Source: a virus
IMG/VR virus record: IMGVR_UViG_3300050120_000210
Span: 1-64,000 of that record
Reading direction: 5' to 3' (one strand)
Length of the DNA stretch: 64,000 nucleotides
Numbering within the stretch: the first letter of the stretch is position 1; each line of letters opens with the position of its first letter. The notes beneath the pieces were generated by a model. The model was not told the DNA's origin, made no database searches, and was given only the letters and a program-made list of their open reading frames with translations. This document shows, in pieces, positions 12,398 through 59,705 of this stretch. A program made the position numbers and the translations under genes.

Positions 12398-12724
12398 ATG
12401 GTGGCGAAAACCTACGACCCGAAAACTATGGCGCTCGCTGCCGAATATCCCTTTGAGGTGATGGTGCAATCTAGCACCGATCCTGTCGGGTCGCGGCAAG
12501 GGTTCGGCGTGAAGCTGGGAGTTTCGAGCCGTGGTTCGGGCAAAGTCAACGATAGCGGGTTCGATAATGCCGTTAGAGAAATGATGGACTGGTGTAACGA
12601 GAATTGCGTTTTCTTCTGGATGCTGGGGCCGGTTCTTCCGATCAAAGTGTTCGAGACGTGGACATACAATTTCGCCTTCGTAGACGAACAAGACGCGATG
12701 TTTTTTAAGCTGCGGTGGCAATGA
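12398..12724 (+). CDS. Accessory protein containing a copied gp21 segment
   Basis: 108 residues from the ATG at 12398 with AAGGA upstream. It ends in FAFVDEQDAMFFKLRWQ, the C-terminal signature of a small paralogous family in this phage. Residues 36-53 (about 12505-12558) are nearly identical in DNA and protein to part of the gp21 protease gene at 26342-26395, including VKLGVSSRGSG. The stop overlaps the TyrRS start (ATGA). No function is known. Confidence 0.65.
   Translation: MVAKTYDPKTMALAAEYPFEVMVQSSTDPVGSRQGFGVKLGVSSRGSGKVNDSGFDNAVREMMDWCNENCVFFWMLGPVLPIKVFETWTYNFAFVDEQDAMFFKLRWQ
12505..12558 (+). repeat. 54-bp duplication of gp21 protease gene sequence (copy 1)
   Basis: 53 of 54 bases match 26342-26395, the single difference being at 12544. 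The reading frame is the same in both copies. The second copy lies in the gp21 gene and covers its GVSSRG motif. Confidence 0.9.
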
Positions 12725-13947
12725 AATCCGAACTGATCCTTATGTTGCAAGAGCGTGGTTTCATCAACCAAGCGACTAACCTTGAGGGGTTGGATGCGCT
12801 GGCGCTTGAGCAGAAAATCACGAGCTACATCGGTTTCGATTTGACCGCCGACAGCTTGCACGTCGGCTCGCTGGTGCAGATCATGTTGCTGCGTCACATG
12901 ACAAAGCTCGGCCACGATCCCTTGATCCTCTTGGGTGAGGCGACCACGCGCATTGGCGATCCGTCCGGCAAGAGCGCGGCAAGGCCGATGCTCACCCGTG
13001 ACCAGATCGAGCACAACCGTCTGGGCATCGAAAAAGTTTTCCGCAAGTTCGTGGACAATCCGACGTTCGTTTCGAACGCCGCATGGTTCGACGATGACAC
13101 GACTCTGTTCGGTTACCTGCACGACTACGGCCCGCATTTTTCCATCAACCGGATGCTCACGTTTGATTCGGTGAAGTCGCGCCTGCGTGGGAACTCGACG
13201 CTGTCGTTCCTTGAGTTCAACTACATGCTCATGCAGGCCATCGACTTCTTCAAGCTGTCTGAAACCATGGACTGCGTGTTGCAGATCGGCGGCTCGGATC
13301 AGTGGGGCAACATCATCAACGGTGTCGAACTGGTTCGTCGAAAGAGCAGCCGTGAGGTGTTCGGGCTGACCACTCCGCTGATGACCAACTCGGCCGGGGA
13401 GAAAATGGGCAAGACCGCCGATGGCGCCATCTGGCTCGACCCGGATAAAACCTCGGCGTTTGAGTTCTGGCAGTTCTGGCGGAACGTGGAAGATGTGAAG
13501 GTCGGAGAGTTCCTTCGCCTGTTCACCGACCTCGATCTCGATGAAATCACGCGTCTGGAAATCCTCGGTGGTCAGGAACTCAACGAGGCCAAGAAAATCC
13601 TCGCGACTGAGGTGACGGCCATGGTCCACGGTAGGGCCACCGCTGCACACGTTGCGCTGCTCACCACGGGCGGTAACGTCGATCCCTGCCCGGATAGTAT
13701 GCCGATGCACATTATCCCGTCAGCGGCCTTCTCTGCGGGCATTACGCTCGCTCAAATCCTTCTCGACAGCAAGTTGGTCACGTCGAAGGGGGAAGCTGAT
13801 CGAATGGCCGCTAACGATGGTGTGAAGATCAACGGGCACATCGTCAACGACGTGCGTGAGGTTCTTCCTCGCCATGCGTTCGAGGACAACAGCTTCCTGC
13901 TCTCCGTGGGCAAGAAGAAGATGATCGCCGTGAAGATCGAGGACTGA
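12721..13947 (+). CDS. tyrS: Tyrosyl-tRNA synthetase, full length
   Basis: 408 residues, the usual bacterial length. Class I motifs are intact: the HIGH motif is HVGS near residue 47 and the KMSKS motif is KMGKT near 230, the latter typical of alphaproteobacterial TyrRS. The tyrosine-site segment YIGFDLTADSLHVGS, the SDQWGN block and a C-terminal S4-like RNA-binding domain (about 340-408) are present. It charges tRNA-Tyr in the cytoplasm. It is coupled to the upstream accessory gene by ATGA. The ATG at 12721 is preferred over a GTG six bases upstream. Confidence 0.93.
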   Translation: MKSELILMLQERGFINQATNLEGLDALALEQKITSYIGFDLTADSLHVGSLVQIMLLRHMTKLGHDPLILLGEATTRIGDPSGKSAARPMLTRDQIEHNRLGIEKVFRKFVDNPTFVSNAAWFDDDTTLFGYLHDYGPHFSINRMLTFDSVKSRLRGNSTLSFLEFNYMLMQAIDFFKLSETMDCVLQIGGSDQWGNIINGVELVRRKSSREVFGLTTPLMTNSAGEKMGKTADGAIWLDPDKTSAFEFWQFWRNVEDVKVGEFLRLFTDLDLDEITRLEILGGQELNEAKKILATEVTAMVHGRATAAHVALLTTGGNVDPCPDSMPMHIIPSAAFSAGITLAQILLDSKLVTSKGEADRMAANDGVKINGHIVNDVREVLPRHAFEDNSFLLSVGKKKMIAVKIED

Positions 13948-19928: not shown

Positions 19929-19935
19929 CTAAATA
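19929..19935 (+). promoter_or_regulatory. Late promoter box CTAAATA
   Basis: ATCCTAAATAAAGG about 25 bases before the tape measure start. Divergent from the gp26 late box 35 bp away, so one small region fires late transcription in both directions. Confidence 0.65.
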
Positions 19936-27892: not shown

Positions 27893-29107
27893 ATGAATAA
27901 GCTTTTTGAATCTCAGTGGCAAGCCACTAAGAAGGCCCTGTGCGAAGGTGCAGACCTCAAGAAGAACGCAGACGGTTCGCCGAACACGACCAAGCAAAAG
28001 GTCATGGAAACGGTTCTCGAAAACACCCGTCGTGAACTGAAGCTGCTGGAATCGGCCACCGCCGGTGCCACCAACGCCGCTTCCGTTGCAACCCTGAACA
28101 AGGTCATCCTGCCGGTCATCCGCCGTGTCATGCCGACCGTGATCGCGAACGAAATCATCGGCGTTCAGCCGATGACCGGCCCGGTCGCTCAAATCCACAC
28201 CCTGCGCGTCCGTTACGCTGATACCGTTCCGACCGCTGGTGGTGGTGTTTCGGCTGGTAACGAAGCCCTGTCGCCGTTCGACATCGCCCGTTTCTACTCG
28301 GGTAACGAGAACGTCAACACCCCCAAGGCTGCTGCTACGCCTGCTCTGGAAGGTCGTCCGGGTAACCGCATGTCCATCCAAATCCTGAAGGAAGTCGTCG
28401 AAGCCAAGACCCGCAAGCTCTCCGCTCGCTGGACCTTCGAAGCCGCTCAGGACGCCCAAGCTCAGCAGGGCATCGACATCGAAGCCGAAATCATGGCCGC
28501 ACTGGCTCAGGAAATCACCGCAGAAATCGACCAAGAAATCTTGGTTTCCCTGCGTGCTCTTCCGGGTGCAGCTACTTCGACCTTCAAGCAGGACGACGTG
28601 TCCGGCACCCCGACCTTCGTCGGCGACGTGCACGCTGCTCTGGCCATCCTGATTAACCGTCAGGCCAACCTCATCGCTTCGCGCACCCGTCGCGGCGCCG
28701 GTAACTGGGTTGTCGTCTCCCCGACTGCACTCACGATCCTGCAATCCGCAACGACCTCCGCTTTCGCTCGCACGACCGAAGGCGTGTTCGAGGCTCCGAC
28801 CAACACCAAGTTCGTCGGCACCCTGAACAACTCGATGCGCGTTTACGTTGACCAGTATGCATCCGACGCGACTCCGGTCCTCGTCGGCTACAAGGGCAAC
28901 GAAATGGACGCAGCGGCATTCTACTGCCCCTACGTTCCGCTGACCTCTTCCGGCGTCGTCATCGACCCGAACACGATGGAACCCGTCGTGTCGTTCATGA
29001 CTCGTTACGGCTACATCGAACTGTCCAACACTGCGTCGTCGCTCGGCAACGCAGCGGACTTCCTCGGTCTGGTTGCTATCGACACCGCCACCCTGTCGTT
29101 CATCTAA
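27893..29107 (+). CDS. 23: Major capsid protein gp23
   Basis: 404 residues, shorter than T4 gp23. Recognised stretches are LPVIRRVMPTVIANEIIGVQPMTGPVAQI near 65-93, SARWTFEAAQDAQAQQGIDIE near 177-197, YVDQYASDATPVLVGYKG near 318 and a YVPLTSSGVVIDPNTMEP block near 343. The HK97-fold shell protein is processed by gp21. GC and codon use look optimised (mostly C/G-ending codons). A strong terminator follows. Confidence 0.95.
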   Translation: MNKLFESQWQATKKALCEGADLKKNADGSPNTTKQKVMETVLENTRRELKLLESATAGATNAASVATLNKVILPVIRRVMPTVIANEIIGVQPMTGPVAQIHTLRVRYADTVPTAGGGVSAGNEALSPFDIARFYSGNENVNTPKAAATPALEGRPGNRMSIQILKEVVEAKTRKLSARWTFEAAQDAQAQQGIDIEAEIMAALAQEITAEIDQEILVSLRALPGAATSTFKQDDVSGTPTFVGDVHAALAILINRQANLIASRTRRGAGNWVVVSPTALTILQSATTSAFARTTEGVFEAPTNTKFVGTLNNSMRVYVDQYASDATPVLVGYKGNEMDAAAFYCPYVPLTSSGVVIDPNTMEPVVSFMTRYGYIELSNTASSLGNAADFLGLVAIDTATLSFI

Positions 29108-40455: not shown

Positions 40456-41508
40456 ATGCAAGTTCGATCTGCCGACCGCCAAGTCCTTCTCACGAGGGAC
40501 GTATTTCGCGAAGGCGTGTTCGCCCGCGATGGCCACAAATGCGTGTTCTGCGACAAACCGGCCGTAGACGCCCATCACATCCTCGAACGACGCCTATTCG
40601 TCTCGCCCGGCGAGCAAGGCGGCTACTTCATGAACAACGGTGCGTCGGTGTGTGGCGAGCATCACATGGCCTGTGAGATGACCACCATCTCCGTAGAGGA
40701 CGTGCGAATCGCCTGCGGGATCACCAAGCCCGTGATCCCTGCCCATCTCTATTCGGACCATGTTTACGATAAATGGGGCAACGTCGTACTGCCCGATGGC
40801 CGCCGCCTGAAGGGCGAACTGTTCAACGACGCCAGCGTTCAAAAGGTGTTGGGCATGGGCGGCGTGCTCGATCTCTTCACGCATTGGGTGAAATACCCCC
40901 GGACCCATCATCTGCCTTGGTCGGAAGGTCTGACCGAAGATGACCGGATGCTCGACACGCTCGATCACTATCGCGGCAAGCGCGTGATTGTGACTGAGAA
41001 GATGGATGGTGAAAACACCACCATGTATCAGGACTACATCCACGCCCGCAGCTTGGATGGTCGAAATCATTCCTCGCGCAACTGGGTCAAGAACTATTGG
41101 GGCCAGATTTGCGGTGACATTCCCGTGGACTGGCGGCTGTGCGGCGAGAACCTCTTCGCCAAGCATTCGATCACCTACGATGCCCTGCCGACGTATTTCA
41201 TGGGTTTCTCGATGTGGAATGACCGCAACGAGTGCCTGTCGTGGGACGAAACCATCGAATGGTTCACCCTGCTCGGTGTCACGCCGGTGCCAGTGCTGTT
41301 CGACGGCATCTTCGACGAGGCAAAAATCAAGGCGTTGTTCAACGTCAAGGATTGGGAACATCGCGAGGGCTATGTCCTGCGGATCGCCGATGGGTTTACC
41401 TATGGCGAGTTCCGCACTTCGGTATCGAAGTTCGTTCGGAAAAATCATGTCCAAACTGTGAAGCATTGGATGCACGGCAAGCCTGTTGAACAGAATGGGC
41501 TAGCCTGA
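40456..41508 (+). CDS. HNH nuclease fused to RNA ligase
   Basis: 350 residues, ATG after GGAGAAGGGCG. Residues 10-80 form an HNH domain: RDGHKCVFCDKPAVDAHHIL, then NNGASVCGEHH. Residues 130-345 form a ligase of the RNA ligase nucleotidyltransferase family: motif I KMDGEN near 181, a CGENLFAKHSITY block (motif III-like) near 235, EGYVLRIADG (motif IV-like) near 302, and a KFVRK motif V-like near 320. One chain can thus cut and seal nucleic acid. It is coupled to a DEDDh exonuclease. Confidence 0.85.
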   Translation: MQVRSADRQVLLTRDVFREGVFARDGHKCVFCDKPAVDAHHILERRLFVSPGEQGGYFMNNGASVCGEHHMACEMTTISVEDVRIACGITKPVIPAHLYSDHVYDKWGNVVLPDGRRLKGELFNDASVQKVLGMGGVLDLFTHWVKYPRTHHLPWSEGLTEDDRMLDTLDHYRGKRVIVTEKMDGENTTMYQDYIHARSLDGRNHSSRNWVKNYWGQICGDIPVDWRLCGENLFAKHSITYDALPTYFMGFSMWNDRNECLSWDETIEWFTLLGVTPVPVLFDGIFDEAKIKALFNVKDWEHREGYVLRIADGFTYGEFRTSVSKFVRKNHVQTVKHWMHGKPVEQNGLA

Positions 41509-52059: not shown

Positions 52060-52548
52060 TCAAGTTGCTTCGCCTGCTACCACTGCCTGTTGAACGCGAG
52101 CACGCAGCCTATACATATTGTAGATGTATTCCCACTCGGTCAGCGTTGTCCGTGTTGGATCATGATGTCCAATAACGTGGGTCAACAAGTCCACGCCAGT
52201 CTCGAACAAAGACTGGCGGAAGATTGGGTTTTGATCGAAGCAGGCATCGTAACCGCGTTCGATCAAGGTATGGAATTCACGAGACAATCTCGGATATGCC
52301 TTACCTCTCCACCACAGGGTTTGGGTATCTCGCCAGTCGTTCCCAACCTGTCCGACTTTGTAGGCTCTGTAGCCCACAAGAACTGCGATCATTTCTTGTT
52401 CTTCAAGCCCTTCGAACTTGAGAGATTGCAGCCAGCCTTCGATCCCGCCGCACTGAACGCCATCCATGACGAAGGGATATGACGCGAAGTTAGAAAGCGC
52501 CTTTCCGAGCCCGCCATTTCGGGAACCAAGATCGAGAATTGCAGTCAT
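52060..52548 (-). CDS. NADAR-family protein 2
   Basis: 162 residues. The same blocks as NADAR 1 are present: LSNFASYPFVMDGVQCGGIEGW near 18-39, QSLKF, then DWRDTQTLWWRGKAYPRLSREF near 75-96 and GVDLLTHVIGHHDPTRTTLTE near 120-140. The two genes are diverged paralogues in one operon. Two copies may have different ADP-ribosyl targets, or one may be a sensor. Confidence 0.75.
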   Translation of the reverse strand: MTAILDLGSRNGGLGKALSNFASYPFVMDGVQCGGIEGWLQSLKFEGLEEQEMIAVLVGYRAYKVGQVGNDWRDTQTLWWRGKAYPRLSREFHTLIERGYDACFDQNPIFRQSLFETGVDLLTHVIGHHDPTRTTLTEWEYIYNMYRLRARVQQAVVAGEAT

Positions 52549-52677: not shown

Positions 52678-52706
52678 TTGACAGCAAATGCAGGCCAAGT
52701 TACTTG
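52678..52706 (+). promoter_or_regulatory. Probable promoter of the MucR-like gene
   Basis: TTGACA at 52678-52683, a 17-bp spacer, then TACTTG at 52701-52706. The -35 is consensus but the -10 is poor. It argues for the downstream ATG at 52748. Confidence 0.4.
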
Positions 52707-52747
52707 CTGAAATCCCTACCGCTGCTTTCCAACAGGAGTGCCCTTAT

Positions 52748-53335
52748 ATGCAGCAATCGGAAGGCGGAAACGCCCAATTCAAGACTGAGATGGCCGTGAG
52801 CATGTTCAATGCTTACGCGGCCAACAACCACGTCGCCGCCACGGAAATTCCGGGTCTCATGGCGACCTTCTCCAAGGAACTGGACGTTCTGATGAACGTG
52901 GCGGCCCCCGCCACCGAACTGGAAAAGAAGGAACCTGCGGTCGCGATCCGCAAGTCCGTCACCCCGGATCACATCATCGACCTGTTCACCGGCCGCAAGT
53001 TCAAGTCCCTGAAGCGTTACCTCCGCACGTCGCACAACATGACGCCGGAGCAGTATCGCGCCTACTGGAACCTGCCGAAGGACTACCCGATGGTCGCCCC
53101 GGCCTACGCGCAACGTCGTTCCGACCTCGCGAAGTCCATGGGTCTCGGCCAAGGTGGGCGCCAGCCCGCCAAGACGGCTCCCGCCGCCGCTGAAGCGCCG
53201 AAGGCTCCCAAGGCCGCCGCCCCCAAGAAGGCCGCTGCCCCGAAAGCTCCGAAAGCCGCCAAGGCCCCGAAGGCTCCCGCTGCTGCCGCCGCTCCGGCTG
53301 AAGCTCCGGCCGCGTCGGAAACCGTCGCTTCCTAA
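52748..53335 (+). CDS. MucR/Ros-family regulator with histone-like tail
   Basis: 195 residues from the ATG at 52748 (GGAG upstream; an ATG at 52688 would lie in the promoter). The MucR core is clear: IRKSVTPDHIIDLFTGRKFK, SLKRYLRTSHNMTPEQYRAYW, LPKDYPMVAPAYAQRRSDLA. The zinc-finger cysteines are replaced (DLFT in place of CLEC), as in zinc-free Ros homologues. The last 60 residues are Ala/Pro/Lys repeats like histone H1 tails. MucR proteins are alphaproteobacterial H-NS-like silencers. Confidence 0.85.
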   Translation: MQQSEGGNAQFKTEMAVSMFNAYAANNHVAATEIPGLMATFSKELDVLMNVAAPATELEKKEPAVAIRKSVTPDHIIDLFTGRKFKSLKRYLRTSHNMTPEQYRAYWNLPKDYPMVAPAYAQRRSDLAKSMGLGQGGRQPAKTAPAAAEAPKAPKAAAPKKAAAPKAPKAAKAPKAPAAAAAPAEAPAASETVAS

Positions 53336-53362
53336 GCGCCAGTTTCGATCCTACCAAGACAG

Positions 53363-53393
53363 AGGCCGCCGGGGTGACTCGGCGGCCTTTTTC
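53363..53393 (+). terminator. Rho-independent terminator after the MucR-like gene
   Basis: AGGCCGCCG/CGGCGGCCT stem with an 8-base loop, followed by TTTTTC. Confidence 0.92.
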
Positions 53394-53431: not shown

Positions 53432-53438
53432 CTAAATA
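53432..53438 (+). promoter_or_regulatory. Late promoter box CTAAATA
   Basis: CGTGCTAAATAGAATC about 55 bases before the NMNAT-Nudix start. It suggests that the NAD+ cluster is at least partly expressed late. Confidence 0.5.
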
Positions 53439-53490
53439 GAATCTAACAGTGGGAACAAACTCACTGGCCATACACATAGAAGGATTTTCT

Positions 53491-54645
53491 ATGGCCCATA
53501 TCACCCGTGCGCGGGAACATGACATTTGCGTCTTCATTGGACGCTTTCAACCCTTGCACGCTGGACATATGGGCGTGATTCTCAAGGCGTTGGAATACGC
53601 CGAGTTCCTCTTCATTCTCATCGGCTCTGCCAACGTCGCCCGTCGTCCTGACGCCAATCCCTTTTTCGCGGCCGAACGCATCGAGATGCTGCTCGCGTCT
53701 CTGCCGCCAGAGGCGCGCGAGCGAGTGATCTTCATTCCCATGGAAGATAGTGACTACGAAACTATCGATTGGGTGAATGCGGTCAACCGCGCCGTGACGA
53801 CCGAAGCGATCAAGATCATGGGCAAGCTCGATTCGAGCATCAGCCTGATCGGCCACTCCAAAGACCACACGTCTTTCTACCTGAAGCTCTTCCCGCAGTG
53901 GAACACTATCGACGTGGTGTCTTCTCGTCCCCTCGACGCGACCATACTGCGGAATCAGTTCTTCACGGGCAACACGGCTGTCGTCGATAACATGTTCCGC
54001 TACGCCGTGGAAAACCAAGACATCCCGCTAGGCGCCATCAACTGGCTGCGAGACTTCCAAAAACTGGATGTCTATGGCGAACTCGTCGAAGAGATGGAGT
54101 TCTATCGATCCTGTCACGCCCGTTGGGATGCGGAATCGTGGCCTGCGAGCCGCAACACTGTCACCGGTGATGCTCTGATTCTGCAATCCAACCATGTCCT
54201 GCTGATCCAGCGCGGTGAGTTCCCTCAGAAGGGAACGTGGGGTATGCCCGGCGGCCACACCAATACGAACGAAACTGTTGCCGATTCTGCGCTGCGCGAA
54301 GGCTACGAAGAGACCGGCATCAAAGTGCCCAAGATCGTTTTCGAAAAGGCGTTCGTCGGCAAAGACTATTTCGATGCTCCCCGCCGCGATCCGCGTGGCC
54401 GGTATATCGGACACGTCTTCATGTATCACTTGCAACCTTCGGCGCCGTCCTACGACACCACCAAGTCGCCTGTGGAGAACCGTCGCCGGGTGAAGGACGC
54501 GTTGTCTCTGCCGAAGGTGAAGGGCATGGACGACGCCATGGGTGCCAAGTGGTGGCACCTCGACGACCTCAAGCGGTCTGAGATGTTCTTGGACCACTAT
54601 TCCATCATTCGCAAAATGACTGCCCAGTTCGGGAAGGGAAATTAA
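53491..54645 (+). CDS. nadM: Bifunctional mononucleotide adenylyltransferase-Nudix (NadM/Nudix type)
   Basis: 384 residues from the ATG at 53491 with AAGGA upstream. The N-terminal 200 residues form an NMNAT: CVFIGRFQPLHAGHMGVI near 13 (GxFxPxHxGH), LIGSANVARRPD, and DATILRNQFF near 165 (SxTxxR-like). The C-terminal Nudix domain has WGMPGGHTNTNET...LREGYEETGI near 250-273. It joins ATP to NMN or nicotinate mononucleotide; the Nudix half may degrade ADP-ribose. Phage KVP40 NatV has the same design. Confidence 0.88.
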   Translation: MAHITRAREHDICVFIGRFQPLHAGHMGVILKALEYAEFLFILIGSANVARRPDANPFFAAERIEMLLASLPPEARERVIFIPMEDSDYETIDWVNAVNRAVTTEAIKIMGKLDSSISLIGHSKDHTSFYLKLFPQWNTIDVVSSRPLDATILRNQFFTGNTAVVDNMFRYAVENQDIPLGAINWLRDFQKLDVYGELVEEMEFYRSCHARWDAESWPASRNTVTGDALILQSNHVLLIQRGEFPQKGTWGMPGGHTNTNETVADSALREGYEETGIKVPKIVFEKAFVGKDYFDAPRRDPRGRYIGHVFMYHLQPSAPSYDTTKSPVENRRRVKDALSLPKVKGMDDAMGAKWWHLDDLKRSEMFLDHYSIIRKMTAQFGKGN

Positions 54646-54646
54646 A

Positions 54647-56008
54647 ATGGACTTCGCGAAACGCGCACATGACCACAGCTTCCACATCGACCCCATCGTG
54701 CGGTCGCTGTTCGACACCGATTTCTACAAGCCGCTGATGCACCAGTTCATCTGGTCGCGCCACCCGAACACGCAGGTTACGTTCGGCGTGACCAACCGCA
54801 CGAAAGACGTGCCGCTCGCCGATATCATCGACGAGGGCGAACTGCGTGAGCAACTCGACCATGTCAAGTCGCTGACCTACACGAAATCGGAACTCATCAA
54901 CCTGAAAGGCCAGTCCTACTACGGTCAAGAGGGCATCTTCCGGCCGGGTTACATCGACTTCCTGCGGACCTTCCGCATGGGCGACTATAATCTCGAACGC
55001 GAGCGCGCGTTCAACGGCGGCGTGGGCTACGACACCGGCCAGTTCCGGTTGGAGTTCGACGACAAGTGGACGCACAGCAGCCCTTGGGAACTGCACTCGC
55101 TGACCGTCGTCAATGAACTTCGCAACCGGGCGCTCATGAAGTCGATGAGCAAGTCCGAACTGGACATCATGTATGCCCGCGCCAAGGTGAAGCTATACGC
55201 CAAGCTGAAGGCTCTGGCCGACGACCCGGCCCTCGAAGGCATCAGCGTCTCCGACTTCGGCACCCGCCGTCGCCATTCGTTCCTCTGGCAGGAATATGTC
55301 GTGCAGATGATGGCCGAAGTTCTCGGAGACCGGTTCGGCGGCACCTCGAACGTCTTCCTCGCCATGAAGCATGGTTTCGAAGCGCGGGGCACCAACGCGC
55401 ACGAACTGCCGATGGTCTACGCGGCTCTGGCCAAGAACGATGAAGAACTCGCGCAGGCGCCCTACAAGCTGTGCCACGACTGGGAGGCCGATGTTCGCGG
55501 CCCGCTGCAAATCATGCTGCCCGACACTTTCGGCACCACGGGGTTCCTGAAGAACGCCCCGCACGGCATGGCTGACTGGGCGGGTGCGCGCCCGGACTCC
55601 AAGAAAGCCAAACCCGCCATCGAAGAACTGATCGCTTACTGGGAATACCATTCCAAGGACCCGAAAACGAAGTTGGTCATCCCGAGCGATGGCCTCGACG
55701 TTCGTGTCCCCGGCTATGAGCCGCAGGGCGAAGACATCCCGACCATCTATCGCGAGTTCAAGGGCCGTGTTCGGATGTCGTTCGGTTGGGGAACGCTGGC
55801 GACCAATGACTTCGTCGGCTGCCATCCGAATCAAGCCGACTACATGAAGCCCGTCAGCCTCGTGTGCAAGGTGAAGTCGGCCGAAGGTCGCCCGGCGGTC
55901 AAGCTGTCGGACAACTACAACAAGGCCACTGGCCCCGCTGAAGAGATCGAACGCTATCGCCGCGTCTTCGGTATCGAAGGGCTGGCTGGCGTCCCGGTCA
56001 CCGTCTGA
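54647..56008 (+). CDS. pncB: Nicotinate phosphoribosyltransferase-like (PncB)
   Basis: 453 residues. PncB-type stretches occur in order: SLFDTDFYKPLMHQ near 22, VSDFGTRRRHSFLWQE near 203, GGTSNVFLAMKHGF near 230, RGTNAHELPMVYAAL near 246 (with the His that is phosphorylated in PncB), LPDTFGTTGFL near 287, VIPSDGLDVRVPGY near 345, FGWGT, and VKLSDNYNKATG near 422. It converts nicotinate plus PRPP to nicotinate mononucleotide. The RHDSGD loop is altered to RPDSKK. Nicotinamide use cannot be excluded. Confidence 0.8.
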   Translation: MDFAKRAHDHSFHIDPIVRSLFDTDFYKPLMHQFIWSRHPNTQVTFGVTNRTKDVPLADIIDEGELREQLDHVKSLTYTKSELINLKGQSYYGQEGIFRPGYIDFLRTFRMGDYNLERERAFNGGVGYDTGQFRLEFDDKWTHSSPWELHSLTVVNELRNRALMKSMSKSELDIMYARAKVKLYAKLKALADDPALEGISVSDFGTRRRHSFLWQEYVVQMMAEVLGDRFGGTSNVFLAMKHGFEARGTNAHELPMVYAALAKNDEELAQAPYKLCHDWEADVRGPLQIMLPDTFGTTGFLKNAPHGMADWAGARPDSKKAKPAIEELIAYWEYHSKDPKTKLVIPSDGLDVRVPGYEPQGEDIPTIYREFKGRVRMSFGWGTLATNDFVGCHPNQADYMKPVSLVCKVKSAEGRPAVKLSDNYNKATGPAEEIERYRRVFGIEGLAGVPVTV

Positions 56009-56018
56009 GGAAAGAAAC

Positions 56019-56264
56019 ATGCATACCAAAGTCGAACGCAAGTTCACCCTCGACGAAGCGGACATCAAAGCCATCGTGGCGGCTCATCTGAGCACGCTCG
56101 GCGATCTTTCTGTCTCGCCGGAACAAGTCATCATCCACATCAAGGACAGCACGCCGTATGGCGGGGGAGGTGATGATGGAAAGCCTGCCGTGCTCACGGT
56201 GACGGCAGTTATCGAAGAACCGCCCGGCCCGTTTCTGCTGTCAGCGCATAGGACTCGCCGGTAA
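56019..56264 (+). CDS. Hypothetical small protein in the NAD+ cluster
   Basis: 81 residues, GGAAAG upstream. Helix (TLDEADIKAIVAAHLSTLG) then strands (QVIIHIKDS and AVLTVTAVIEE) with a Gly-rich loop. No domain recognised. Lies between pncB and the promoter before pncA. Confidence 0.6.
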   Translation: MHTKVERKFTLDEADIKAIVAAHLSTLGDLSVSPEQVIIHIKDSTPYGGGGDDGKPAVLTVTAVIEEPPGPFLLSAHRTRR

Positions 56265-56275
56265 GGCGATTATCG

Positions 56276-56303
56276 TTGACCAAATCAATATTCAAGATAG
56301 CCT
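56276..56303 (+). promoter_or_regulatory. Early-type promoter within the NAD+ cluster
   Basis: TTGACC at 56276-56281 in TATCGTTGACCAAAT, a 16-bp spacer and TAGCCT at 56298-56303. Gives pncA-nadE an early promoter of their own. Confidence 0.6.
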
Positions 56304-56327
56304 CTGAATAGAGGCAGAAGGATCAAA

Positions 56328-56966
56328 ATGAACAAGATTGCAATCAAGCAAGGGACCGACATTCTGGGTTCCATCGACCAGCAGGTTGACTTTGGCGACG
56401 ACGGCAAGCTGCCGGTCGCCGGTGGCAAGGCCACGGTCGAACCCACCAATCGTGTGGGCAAGAAGTTTCGGCGCGCGTTCAAATCGCAGGATTGGCACCC
56501 GGCCGACCACGGTTCGTTCGCCAGTCAACACGGCGTGGCCCCCTTCACGATGATTAAGTTGGGTGGTCTCGATCAAGTCGCGTGGACGGATCACTGCGTG
56601 CAGGGCACCGAAGGCGCCGAGTTCCTCCCCGGCCTCGATCTGCCAAACACCGTACTGGTCGTCCGCAAGGGCATGAACCGGATGATCGACAGTTACTCGG
56701 CGTTCTTCGAGAACGATGGCACGACGCCGACCGGCCTGAACGGCGCGCTGGCCGAACTCGGAATCAAGCGCATCTTCCTGACTGGTTTGGCCCGCAACTT
56801 CTGCGTTGCCTTCACGGCGCTGGATGCCATTCGGCTTGGTTACGAAGTCTTCATCTTCGAAGACGCCGTCGCCTCGATCCAAGATGGCTCGGACGAGGCT
56901 ATGACCGAAAAACTACTCGCCGCTGGCGTGAAGCTCATCACCACGGCCGACATCGAGGGGATTTGA
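56328..56966 (+). CDS. pncA: Nicotinamidase (PncA-like)
   Basis: 212 residues. The isochorismatase-fold catalytic triad is complete: Asp 17 in SIDQQVDF, Lys near 114 in VVRKGMN, Cys near 159 in ARNFCVAFTALDA. The metal site DWHPADHGSF (Asp 55, His 57, His 61) is also intact. It hydrolyses nicotinamide to nicotinate, the first step of the deamidating NAD+ salvage route. AAGG upstream. The next gene starts 1 base after the stop. Confidence 0.9.
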   Translation: MNKIAIKQGTDILGSIDQQVDFGDDGKLPVAGGKATVEPTNRVGKKFRRAFKSQDWHPADHGSFASQHGVAPFTMIKLGGLDQVAWTDHCVQGTEGAEFLPGLDLPNTVLVVRKGMNRMIDSYSAFFENDGTTPTGLNGALAELGIKRIFLTGLARNFCVAFTALDAIRLGYEVFIFEDAVASIQDGSDEAMTEKLLAAGVKLITTADIEGI

Positions 56967-56967
56967 G

Positions 56968-57618
56968 ATGACCGAATCGTTCGAAAGCAAATTCACCAAA
57001 ATCGGTGACGTGACGCTTCCCTACTATGCGGGAACCCGCGTCATGATGCTCCCGGTCATCATCGGCAACGAGGCCAGCATTCCCGATCTGCTGGCCGGTG
57101 AATGGAAGGCGACCTTCCATGAACTGTCCGAACTCGCCAATCCCGCCCACAAGGGCAAGGTTGGTTACCTGACCATCGACGAGAAAATTGTTCAACCTGC
57201 CAAGACCCATCGCCGCGAAGGCAAACACGTCGATGGCGTGTTCCAAGGCAGCACCGGTAGCTGGGGCGGCGGTGGAGGATGGGGCTCCGTGGGCAACGGT
57301 ATGATTACCGTCGCCTCGCACCCCGGTTGTCGTGCGTGGAACCAAACCTTCATCGGTCGCACCGGATACGAAGGCGAATGCGATCACCTCGCCGACCAGT
57401 GCGAAGGTGAAGGCACGCTGTTTGGCGCCGGTGAAGTGTTCTGGGTGGATGGATTGTGCGTCCATGAGTCGGTGGCCATGACGCGGCCGACTCCGCGCCA
57501 GTTCGTGCGACTCTCGCTGCCGTCGAATGCGGCGTGGTTCGAGGGCTACACAGAAAATCCGCTGGGCGTGCTTCCCACCGGCCCGATCCTCCCGCGCCGT
57601 TCGTTCATGGACGCCTGA
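56968..57618 (+). CDS. Unknown protein embedded in the NAD+ operon
   Basis: 216 residues. An alpha/beta N-terminal half is followed by a Gly-rich stretch (GSTGSWGGGGGWGSVGNG) and a region with conserved-looking His and Asp: GEVFWVDGLCVHESVAM near 156, then PTPRQFVRLSLPS and YTENPLGVLPTGPILPRRS. The C-terminal part has the feel of a cupin or 2-oxoglutarate oxygenase sheet, but I cannot assign it. Its place between pncA and nadE suggests a role in pyridine nucleotide metabolism. Confidence 0.6.
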   Translation: MTESFESKFTKIGDVTLPYYAGTRVMMLPVIIGNEASIPDLLAGEWKATFHELSELANPAHKGKVGYLTIDEKIVQPAKTHRREGKHVDGVFQGSTGSWGGGGGWGSVGNGMITVASHPGCRAWNQTFIGRTGYEGECDHLADQCEGEGTLFGAGEVFWVDGLCVHESVAMTRPTPRQFVRLSLPSNAAWFEGYTENPLGVLPTGPILPRRSFMDA

Positions 57619-57620
57619 AT

Positions 57621-57932
57621 ATGACGGCTCCCGCACTTCATTCCTTTGAATATGCGCTGGTGGTGGTGTCTCAACGCCTGCTGCCGTCCGCATATCCGAC
57701 TGAAGTTGCGCGGGAGCTTTCCACCGTGCTCAACCGAGAAGTCAGCATCCCGCAAGTCGTGCTCTCGCTGAACCGGCTTGAGGAAAATGGCTTCGTGGTC
57801 ACCACGATCAGCGAAGCCCGGCCCGTTCGCGGTGGCCGTAAGCGGCGGATGATCTATGTCACGAAGTCCGGCGCGGATGCTGCGGTTCAGACGCGTGATT
57901 TCTACAATAACCTTCAGTTCGAGAAGGACTAA
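57621..57932 (+). CDS. Winged-helix regulator, PadR-like
   Basis: 103 residues from the ATG at 57621. The winged-helix pattern matches PadR: YPTEVARELSTVLNREVSIPQVVLSLNRLEENGFV then GGRKRRMIYVTKSGADA. It probably binds DNA as a dimer. It could control the NAD+ operon or a host gene. Confidence 0.7.
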   Translation: MTAPALHSFEYALVVVSQRLLPSAYPTEVARELSTVLNREVSIPQVVLSLNRLEENGFVVTTISEARPVRGGRKRRMIYVTKSGADAAVQTRDFYNNLQFEKD

Positions 57933-57935
57933 AAA

Positions 57936-59705
57936 ATGAAGATCAAGATCGCCGTCGTGCAATTCAATCCCAAGGTGGGAGCACTGGAAGACAACGCCGC
58001 CCGGATGCTCGGACTGTATTCGGCCGCCGCCGTGTCCGGCGCCGATCTCGTCGTGTTCCCCGAATGCGCGCTCACTGGCTATCCGCTGGAAGACCTCGTG
58101 TTGCGTCACAGCTTCATGGACGCCGTGGTCGTGGAATCGAAGGCGTTCATCGACGCGGTTTATGCCACCGGCCTGAAAGCATCCGTGATCTTTGGTACGC
58201 CCATCCACGGTGTGGCCATCAACGGCGATGATCGGTCGGGCAATGGCGCCATCCTGTTTGATCCCACCACGGGCAAATGGGAATCGGTTCTCAAATACGA
58301 ACTGCCGAATTACGGCGTGTTCGACGAGAAGCGCATTTTCCAACGCGGCGAAGACCCGATCCATACCATTGAATGGCGTGGCAAGAAAATCGGCCTGATG
58401 ATCTGCGAAGACGCGTGGTTCTCGACCGTCACGAATCGGCTCTACACGGATGACGCCGTCTTCCTCATCTCGATCAACGGTTCGCCGTTCGAGTCCGGCA
58501 AGAACGTCATCCGCCACAACGTCGTCAAGGAACGGATGAACGAAACCGGCCTGCCGTTCCTCTACGTGAACATGGTCGGTGGACAAGACGAACTGGTGTT
58601 CGACGGTGGGTCTTTCCTCTACGACAGCAACGGTCTGCAAGAGGCTCCCTACTTCGAAGATGGTCTCTTCTTTTTCGACACAGAAATCACCGAAGAGAAA
58701 CGATCCCAGTCGATGTCGTGGGGTGATCCGCCACCTCCGGCAATCATGACCTTCACCGACTTCCCAACCATCGTTCCCACCGGCATCGGCGCGATCTACC
58801 AAGCCTGCGTGCTCGGTCTGCGGGACTACGTGACCAAGCAGGGTTTCAAGAGCGTCTTGCTGGGATATTCCGGCGGGGTGGACTCCGGTATCGTCGCCGC
58901 CATGGCCTGCGATGCTCTGGGTCACGAGAACGTTCTGTTGGTCCGTCTACCCTCCAATTTCTCATCGGACGGTTCGCTCACCGACGCCGCTGATGGGGCC
59001 AAGCGGCTCGGTGCGGCGATGCGGACGATCTACATCGAAGGGATCGTCAACGAACTGCGGCGGTCCTACACCACGGCGACATACGGTCATGACGAAAACG
59101 CGCCGGGTGCTTCACAGTTGGACAAGCACCTCGAAGGTGTGGCCGACGAGAACATCCAAGCTCGCGCTCGCGGGACCGTCCTGATGGCCATCAGCAATCA
59201 GGAAGGCCATATGCTCTTGACCACCGGCAACAAGTCGGAAGTCAGCGTGGGCTATTCGACGCTCTACGGCGACATGTCGGGCGGCTTCAATCCGATCAAG
59301 GATTGCTACAAGGTCACGGTCTGGGACCTCTGCCGCTGGCGGAACGCCTTGACCGCTCAGCAAATCCGCGACTTCGGGTTCATGGGCGCGGCGACGGAGG
59401 TTGTGCCGGAAGCAATCATCGTCAAGCCGCCGTCCGCCGAACTTCGGCCGGACCAACAAGACAGTGACAGCCTTCCCGCCTATCCGATTCTCGACGCGAT
59501 GCTGAAGGCGATGATCGAAGACGAACTTAGCGTCAACGAGATCGTTGACAAGCTGGGTCTTGATATCGACTTGGTCAAACGCATCCGGCGACTGGTGGAC
59601 AACGCAGAATACAAGCGCCGTCAAGCGGCGCCGGGCGTGAAGATCACCAGCAAGATTCACGGCCGGGATCGTCGCTACCCCATCGTCAACGCGTGGAGGA
59701 ACTGA
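57936..59705 (+). CDS. nadE: Glutamine-dependent NAD+ synthetase (NadE)
   Basis: 589 residues, full length. The N-terminal nitrilase-type glutaminase has Glu 43 in FPECALTGY, a Lys in LKYELPNYGVFDE near 116 and Cys in LMICEDAWF near 157. The C-terminal synthetase has the P-loop LLGYSGGVDSGIVAAM near 308-323 and TTGNKSEVSVGYSTLYGDMSGG near 430-451. It amidates nicotinate adenine dinucleotide to NAD+ using ATP and glutamine. Confidence 0.93.
   Translation: MKIKIAVVQFNPKVGALEDNAARMLGLYSAAAVSGADLVVFPECALTGYPLEDLVLRHSFMDAVVVESKAFIDAVYATGLKASVIFGTPIHGVAINGDDRSGNGAILFDPTTGKWESVLKYELPNYGVFDEKRIFQRGEDPIHTIEWRGKKIGLMICEDAWFSTVTNRLYTDDAVFLISINGSPFESGKNVIRHNVVKERMNETGLPFLYVNMVGGQDELVFDGGSFLYDSNGLQEAPYFEDGLFFFDTEITEEKRSQSMSWGDPPPPAIMTFTDFPTIVPTGIGAIYQACVLGLRDYVTKQGFKSVLLGYSGGVDSGIVAAMACDALGHENVLLVRLPSNFSSDGSLTDAADGAKRLGAAMRTIYIEGIVNELRRSYTTATYGHDENAPGASQLDKHLEGVADENIQARARGTVLMAISNQEGHMLLTTGNKSEVSVGYSTLYGDMSGGFNPIKDCYKVTVWDLCRWRNALTAQQIRDFGFMGAATEVVPEAIIVKPPSAELRPDQQDSDSLPAYPILDAMLKAMIEDELSVNEIVDKLGLDIDLVKRIRRLVDNAEYKRRQAAPGVKITSKIHGRDRRYPIVNAWRN

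Follow-up and report, generated by a model that had tools for sequence, protein, structure and literature searches.

H-NS-like silencers act as a host barrier to foreign DNA, and a virus that carries a homologue of one raises the question of what a phage might gain from it. The gene concerned occupies positions 52748..53335 (+) of the window, by which is meant the whole stretch of 64,000 nucleotides that was analysed, and encodes a MucR-like protein of 195 aa, as assigned by Pfam, AlphaFold2 and Foldseek. Its ATG at 52748 is preceded, ~10 bases upstream, by the Shine-Dalgarno sequence AGGAG, the longest possible reading frame starting at 52688. The Pfam profile ROS_MUCR (PF05443) matches residues 13-134 at E 1.9e-39 and over family positions 3-123 of 123, i.e. 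in full length, and phmmer aligns Ros87 (2jsp) at E 4e-30; the affiliation to Ros/MucR asserted in the earlier note is therefore supported, and the profile search proposed there placed the protein inside the family, its score of 135 bits lying above the cut-off of 25.4. This match is unique within the 149,124-base virus record, and PHROGs has no family for the protein.

The phage context of the gene, also claimed beforehand, is borne out by the capsid protein (27893-29107), which is 81% identical to that of Sinorhizobium phage Phosso (469 kb) and 66% to that of Agrobacterium phage Atu_ph07 (490 kb), as well as 94%, 92% and 89% identical to those of the metagenomic contigs G006, G185 and G002, the latter two measuring 561-578 kb. 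Given this identity and the size of the relatives, the window is part of a jumbo T4-like phage rather than of a 149-kb one, the 149-kb record probably covering no more than part of a genome of roughly 500 kb. The NMN adenylyltransferase (NMNAT) matches had pointed to a DSS3P8-like phage of 149 kb, a reading that was rejected, for the capsid protein gave Phosso and Atu_ph07. Among the jumbo relatives compared, MucR occurs at other positions in G001, G003 (two copies), G004 and G011 and is absent from Phosso, Atu_ph07, G008, G010, G012 and G013. Of the two MucRs of G003 (517 kb; L265 and L269), one has a 54-aa basic tail and lies near an inverted NMNAT-NAPRTase pair, the other being without a long tail. 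The window also carries a tyrosyl-tRNA synthetase-like gene and an RNA ligase (12715-13947; 40456-41508).

The neighbourhood of mucR is as telling as its host phage, and both the jumbo nature and the synteny described here were missed by the earlier reading. On the same strand follow an NMNAT-Nudix gene (53491..54645, +; Pfam CTP_transf_like and NUDIX, phrog_395 E 8e-61), a gene of the NAPRTase/NAMPT family (54647..56008, +; Pfam NAPRTase E 1.4e-31), an isochorismatase-family gene (56328..56966, +; Pfam E 1.7e-22), from its context probably a nicotinamidase, and an NAD synthetase gene (57936..59705, +; phrog_36784 E 1.8e-182), which together make up a near-complete NAD+ salvage set (53491-59705, +). 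The order mucR, NMNAT-Nudix, NAPRTase, NAD synthetase recurs on one strand in six contigs, and these orthologous loci (the window, G006/L263/L283, G002/L264/L272, G005/L270/L271, L273 and L284) include all three contigs in which the identity of the capsid protein to that of the window reaches 89% or more. On the far side of mucR, a divergent gene of the gp30.3 family (52060..52548, -; Pfam E 2.3e-40) is conserved in five of the six, with 65-71% identity in tblastn. Near the NAD set, the opposite strand carries two gp30.3 paralogues and a gene with a macro domain, and together with the set they resemble an NAD/ADP-ribose conflict island. Trees of the core have little resolution, the window protein falling near Mesorhizobium in one and remaining unplaced in another, and a single clade for the six orthologues is not rejected by the AU test (p 0.39); shared synteny is a stronger argument than the trees for a single origin.

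Within this arrangement mucR has control signals of its own, as the earlier note had stated. A promoter, TTGACA-N17-TACTTG (52680..52708, +), lies ~70 bases before the ATG, just downstream of a T6 tract, and TTGAC[AT]-N16/17-TA is present in all six orthologous upstream regions, as compared with about 0.01-0.03 each in shuffles; after the gene comes an intrinsic terminator, AGGCCGCCGGGGTGACTCGGCGGCCTTTTT (53358..53387, +), with a stem of -23.6 kcal/mol, its counterparts in the six loci ranging from -18.7 to -24.2 kcal/mol. A consensus scan of the window listed neither this promoter nor this terminator. The NAD genes are in turn preceded by a T4-late-promoter-like box, TAAATA (53433..53438, +), invariant in 6/6 loci. 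The sigma-70-like promoter and private terminator of mucR, and the position of the NAD genes behind a late-like box, suggest that mucR may be expressed early and separately from its neighbours.

The same signals bear on the possibility that MucR is a local regulator of NAD+ metabolism, which would time or repress the adjacent NMNAT-NAPRTase-NadE genes and itself. Such a role would fit the fact that mucR immediately precedes NMNAT-NAPRTase in six contigs, with the divergent gp30.3 gene opposite in five; yet the terminator and the separate late-like box part the two units, the pair NMNAT-NAPRTase occurs with no adjoining mucR in the viral contigs L277, L280 and L281, and other jumbo MucRs are located elsewhere. 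A dedicated NAD+ regulator is consequently regarded as rather doubtful. Control of the NAD genes at the level of translation is possible: in the leader (53433-53493), a predicted hairpin (CAU-GGUAG/CUA-UG) after TAAATA pairs the NMNAT start codon, several of its pairs being kept by two-sided changes across six phages, and Rfam searches around mucR returned sub-threshold matches only. TAAATA boxes at 19930, 22494, 24880 and 53433 (+) stand shortly before structural and other genes and, in this alphaproteobacterial jumbo phage, resemble T4 late promoters.

Is the protein itself equipped to act as a silencer? It comprises a putative N-terminal two-helix oligomerisation domain (aa ~6-50), a Ros/MucR DNA-binding domain (aa ~63-134) and an A/K/P tail (aa 136-195). 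In an AlphaFold2 model, built from a 73-sequence alignment with four annotated-phage sequences left out, the helices span residues 6-26 and 31-50 and the core reaches a pLDDT of 89-97; Ros 2jsp is the only significant PDB match to the model (Foldseek E 1.1e-5, prob 1.00). When Brucella MucR numbering is mapped onto the window protein, the oligomerisation triad L36/L39/I40 corresponds to I34/L37/M38, and the DNA contacts K91/R92/R126 to K89/R90/R124; the triad differs in the N-terminal domains of orthologues, e.g. L272. By alignment to 2jsp, Asp126 takes the position of Brucella R128 (Ros R-S-R), a basic minor-groove residue of Ros being here replaced by Asp, and it may be speculated that the cationic tail offsets this change. 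Basic C-terminal residues of MucR touch DNA, hence the tail would extend an end of the protein that already contacts it. The N-terminal helices, the DNA-binding domain and the Lys-Arg contact pair are common to the MucRs of Brucella, Caulobacter and Sinorhizobium, which are H-NS-like silencers but, unlike that of the window, are chromosomal, keep zinc (CysAspHis2) and have ends of mostly 4-20 aa.

The zinc site of the window protein (D78, T81, Y91, H96; 52979..53035, +) is degenerate, as judged from the phmmer alignment to 2jsp and from a survey of 82 homologues. The Ros87 ligands C24/C27/H37/H42 correspond to D78/T81/Y91/H96, three of the four being lost with only H96 kept, and the residues depart from the PF05443 pattern C-[C/D]-H-[H/Y]. 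Loss of the site was thus rightly noticed before, D78, T81 and Y91 standing in place of three ligands, and the reported change of CxxC to DLFT is correct relative to Ros, most MucRs being already CxxD. Its presentation as a notable trait was overstated: viral homologues often have Ser in place of the first Cys, and Ml4 and Ml5 of Mesorhizobium loti share with the window protein a Ros/MucR fold without structural zinc (PMC9779718, PMC11662661). Both fold and bind DNA (PMC9779718, PMC5693944), and Ml5 forms rings (PMC9779718, PMC11662661) and bridges AT-rich DNA like Brucella MucR (PMC11662661), for which reason zinc loss is not surprising by itself; the site is optional for the family, Ml4 and Ml5 being accepted zinc-free members. 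Differences from Ml5 nevertheless exist, in that Ser takes the place of the first Cys in Ml5, whereas the window protein has D/T/Y at the first three ligands, bears a 60-aa tail and is phage-borne.

Among the 82 viral homologues listed together with Ros87, whose frequencies are indicative only, the commonest ligand state is C-D-H, the first Cys is replaced by Ser in about a third and the third-ligand His by Tyr in about a dozen of the viral proteins, and none besides that of the window has lost the first three ligands together. Full loss is likewise private to the window within the six orthologous loci, the first Cys being lost in L284 and the third ligand being Tyr in L271 and L272. The core is modelled with confidence and its ligands are missing, so that zinc loss would be compatible with the Ros fold, and the protein lends itself to testing how well a Ros finger copes without three of its zinc ligands. 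In a further variant, S. meliloti MucR2, the sphere is atypical and may involve Tyr (PMC13297338), and MucR2 and MucR3 bind DNA without bridging it. Since Ml4 and Ml5 bind DNA and MucR2 and MucR3 do so without bridging, the window protein is likely to bind DNA, though it need not bridge it; oligomer-dependent bridging and silencing of the H-NS type would be an extrapolation from Brucella MucR and Ml5 (PMC11662661).

The most distinctive part is the tail (53153..53332, +), recognised by composition, low model confidence and the tails of orthologues. The earlier note was right on its make-up, for Ala (28), Pro (11) and Lys (9) account for 48 of the last 60 residues (80%); its charges are +10/-3 and it is predicted to be disordered (pLDDT 58-70). 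Against an A+K+P background of 18% in long ORFs of the window, the naive binomial P is about 5e-25, and mucR has the highest A/K/P end among the window's 352 ORFs (0.80, the next being 0.57). The likening to histone H1 holds for the composition and for a disordered basic tail, but the H1 globular domain is absent and two of the six orthologue tails are not net basic; in Pfam and Foldseek, neither an H1 winged-helix domain nor homology to H1 was found, ROS_MUCR being the sole domain. A disordered Ala/Lys/Pro C-terminus is a feature of the H1-like and tailed HU nucleoid proteins of bacteria; here it is joined to a Ros/MucR domain, and no sequence homology is claimed.

All six orthologous loci, of jumbo type, keep a tail of 46-77 aa, which makes it a conserved lineage trait, retained although pairwise identity to the window MucR falls to about 40-48%. 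The A/K/P content of the six tails is 0.79, 0.75, 0.60, 0.59, 0.50 and 0.32; four of them carry a net positive charge, the other two being neutral or slightly negative (L283 +8/-8, L273 +9/-10), so that non-specific DNA affinity may not be their shared function. The unresolved trees and the single clade kept by the AU test weaken the idea of convergent tails. That A/K/P tails are confined to phages was rejected: the 80 cellular MucRs closest to the window protein, the best of the list, end in 4-33 aa, while among 60 further ones, picked for long frames, two have A/K/P-rich tails of 44 aa (L339) and 52 aa (L338), and with the viral matches being those listed and the cellular ones the best 80, these tail frequencies are indicative only. 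The tail thus appears enriched in the phage locus, not exclusive to phages.

Could mucR instead be a captured host gene that is idle or decaying, with an eroding zinc site and a tail born of low-complexity drift in GC-rich DNA? Zinc ligands do vary among orthologues, and the MucR cores diverge faster than their neighbours (about 40-48% identity vs 54-64% for NAPRTase). Decay is nonetheless most improbable: the frame is intact, promoter, ribosome site, terminator and position are conserved in six phages, invariant core residues are kept and the tail persists in 6/6; moreover, the tail DNA has just two weak 9-base tandem arrays (73-78% matches) and mixed codon usage, and is thus unlike a fresh slippage product.

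The reading favoured here, with an even chance of being right, is that the phage-encoded Ros/MucR is an architectural repressor of the H-NS kind, small and expressed early, which gains non-specific affinity for DNA from its tail. On this view the N-terminal helices would make oligomers, the Ros-type domain would fold without zinc and contact AT-rich sites, and the flexible tail would provide sequence-independent DNA affinity or compaction, as in H1-like nucleoid proteins. Produced early and apart from the NAD genes, the protein would have as targets the region of its own promoter and further AT-rich promoters, phage or host, which it would occupy and in part silence or bridge. A bolder version, held to be unlikely, is that in a lineage of jumbo T4-like phages a captured MucR has become a chromatin protein with a tail and a partial independence of zinc, which organises the phage genome of roughly 500 kb or, early in infection, assumes control of silencing in the host nucleoid, the neighbouring NAD+-restoring genes being included in its regulon.

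The opposite role, in which phage MucR would hetero-oligomerise with host MucR or compete for its sites and so relieve silencing of phage promoters, is quite unlikely. The N-terminal two-helix domain is predicted to be intact, and mobile-element homologues are known to antagonise H-NS (PMC7074111); still, a complete DNA-binding domain with an added basic tail is the opposite of a truncated antagonist, and the N-terminal domain of other orthologues has drifted from host MucR. There is little to motivate the earlier suggestion that the protein blocks the silencing of phage DNA rich in AT: the window has just 44% AT, and both oligomerisation helices and DNA-binding domain are kept, unlike in truncated anti-silencers. 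For a rewiring of the cell cycle, also hinted at before, the analysis gave no support.

As regards known relatives, the best cellular identity is 59%, to Phenylobacterium. A single-protein scan of viral contigs found no MucR homologue, and an alignment query of viral contigs gave at least 76 matches. The MucRs annotated in GenBank for Mesorhizobium phage Cp1R7A-A1 and Erythrobacter phages R6L/ZS04 share 43-48% core identity with that of the window, but have tails of 6-15 aa, a first Cys that is kept or Ser, and no NAD locus beside them in the flanks read. Phage Lsr2/H-NS homologues are likewise phage copies of host xenogeneic silencers (PMC8612146, PMC7074111), though of other protein families and in other hosts; Lsr2 copies are commoner in temperate phages, whereas the window MucR belongs to a T4-like jumbo phage. 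Among open-licence papers, none was found that treats phage-encoded MucR in title or abstract, or MucR together with jumbo phages in full text, and MucR goes unmentioned in a review of 224 jumbo phages. The protein is therefore a real, conserved and modestly novel variant of a known family, and not categorically new, because zinc-free Ml4 and Ml5 bind DNA, phage MucRs are annotated in GenBank and cellular A/K/P tails reach 52 aa. A tailed silencer kept with its own control signals by very large T4-like phages is a ready system in which to study what such silencers do in phages, a question that is open for phage Lsr2 too (PMC10066036).

Two further observations concern Ros/MucR-like sequences in other phages. 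Finger-like segments lie within frames of 728, 372 and 337 aa (L260, L261 and L262, in G006 and G011) and are perhaps DNA-binding parts of other enzymes. In Citromicrobium phage RXM (L006:2695-4100), a MucR-like gene directly precedes an annotated anti-CRISPR gene, AcrVA2.
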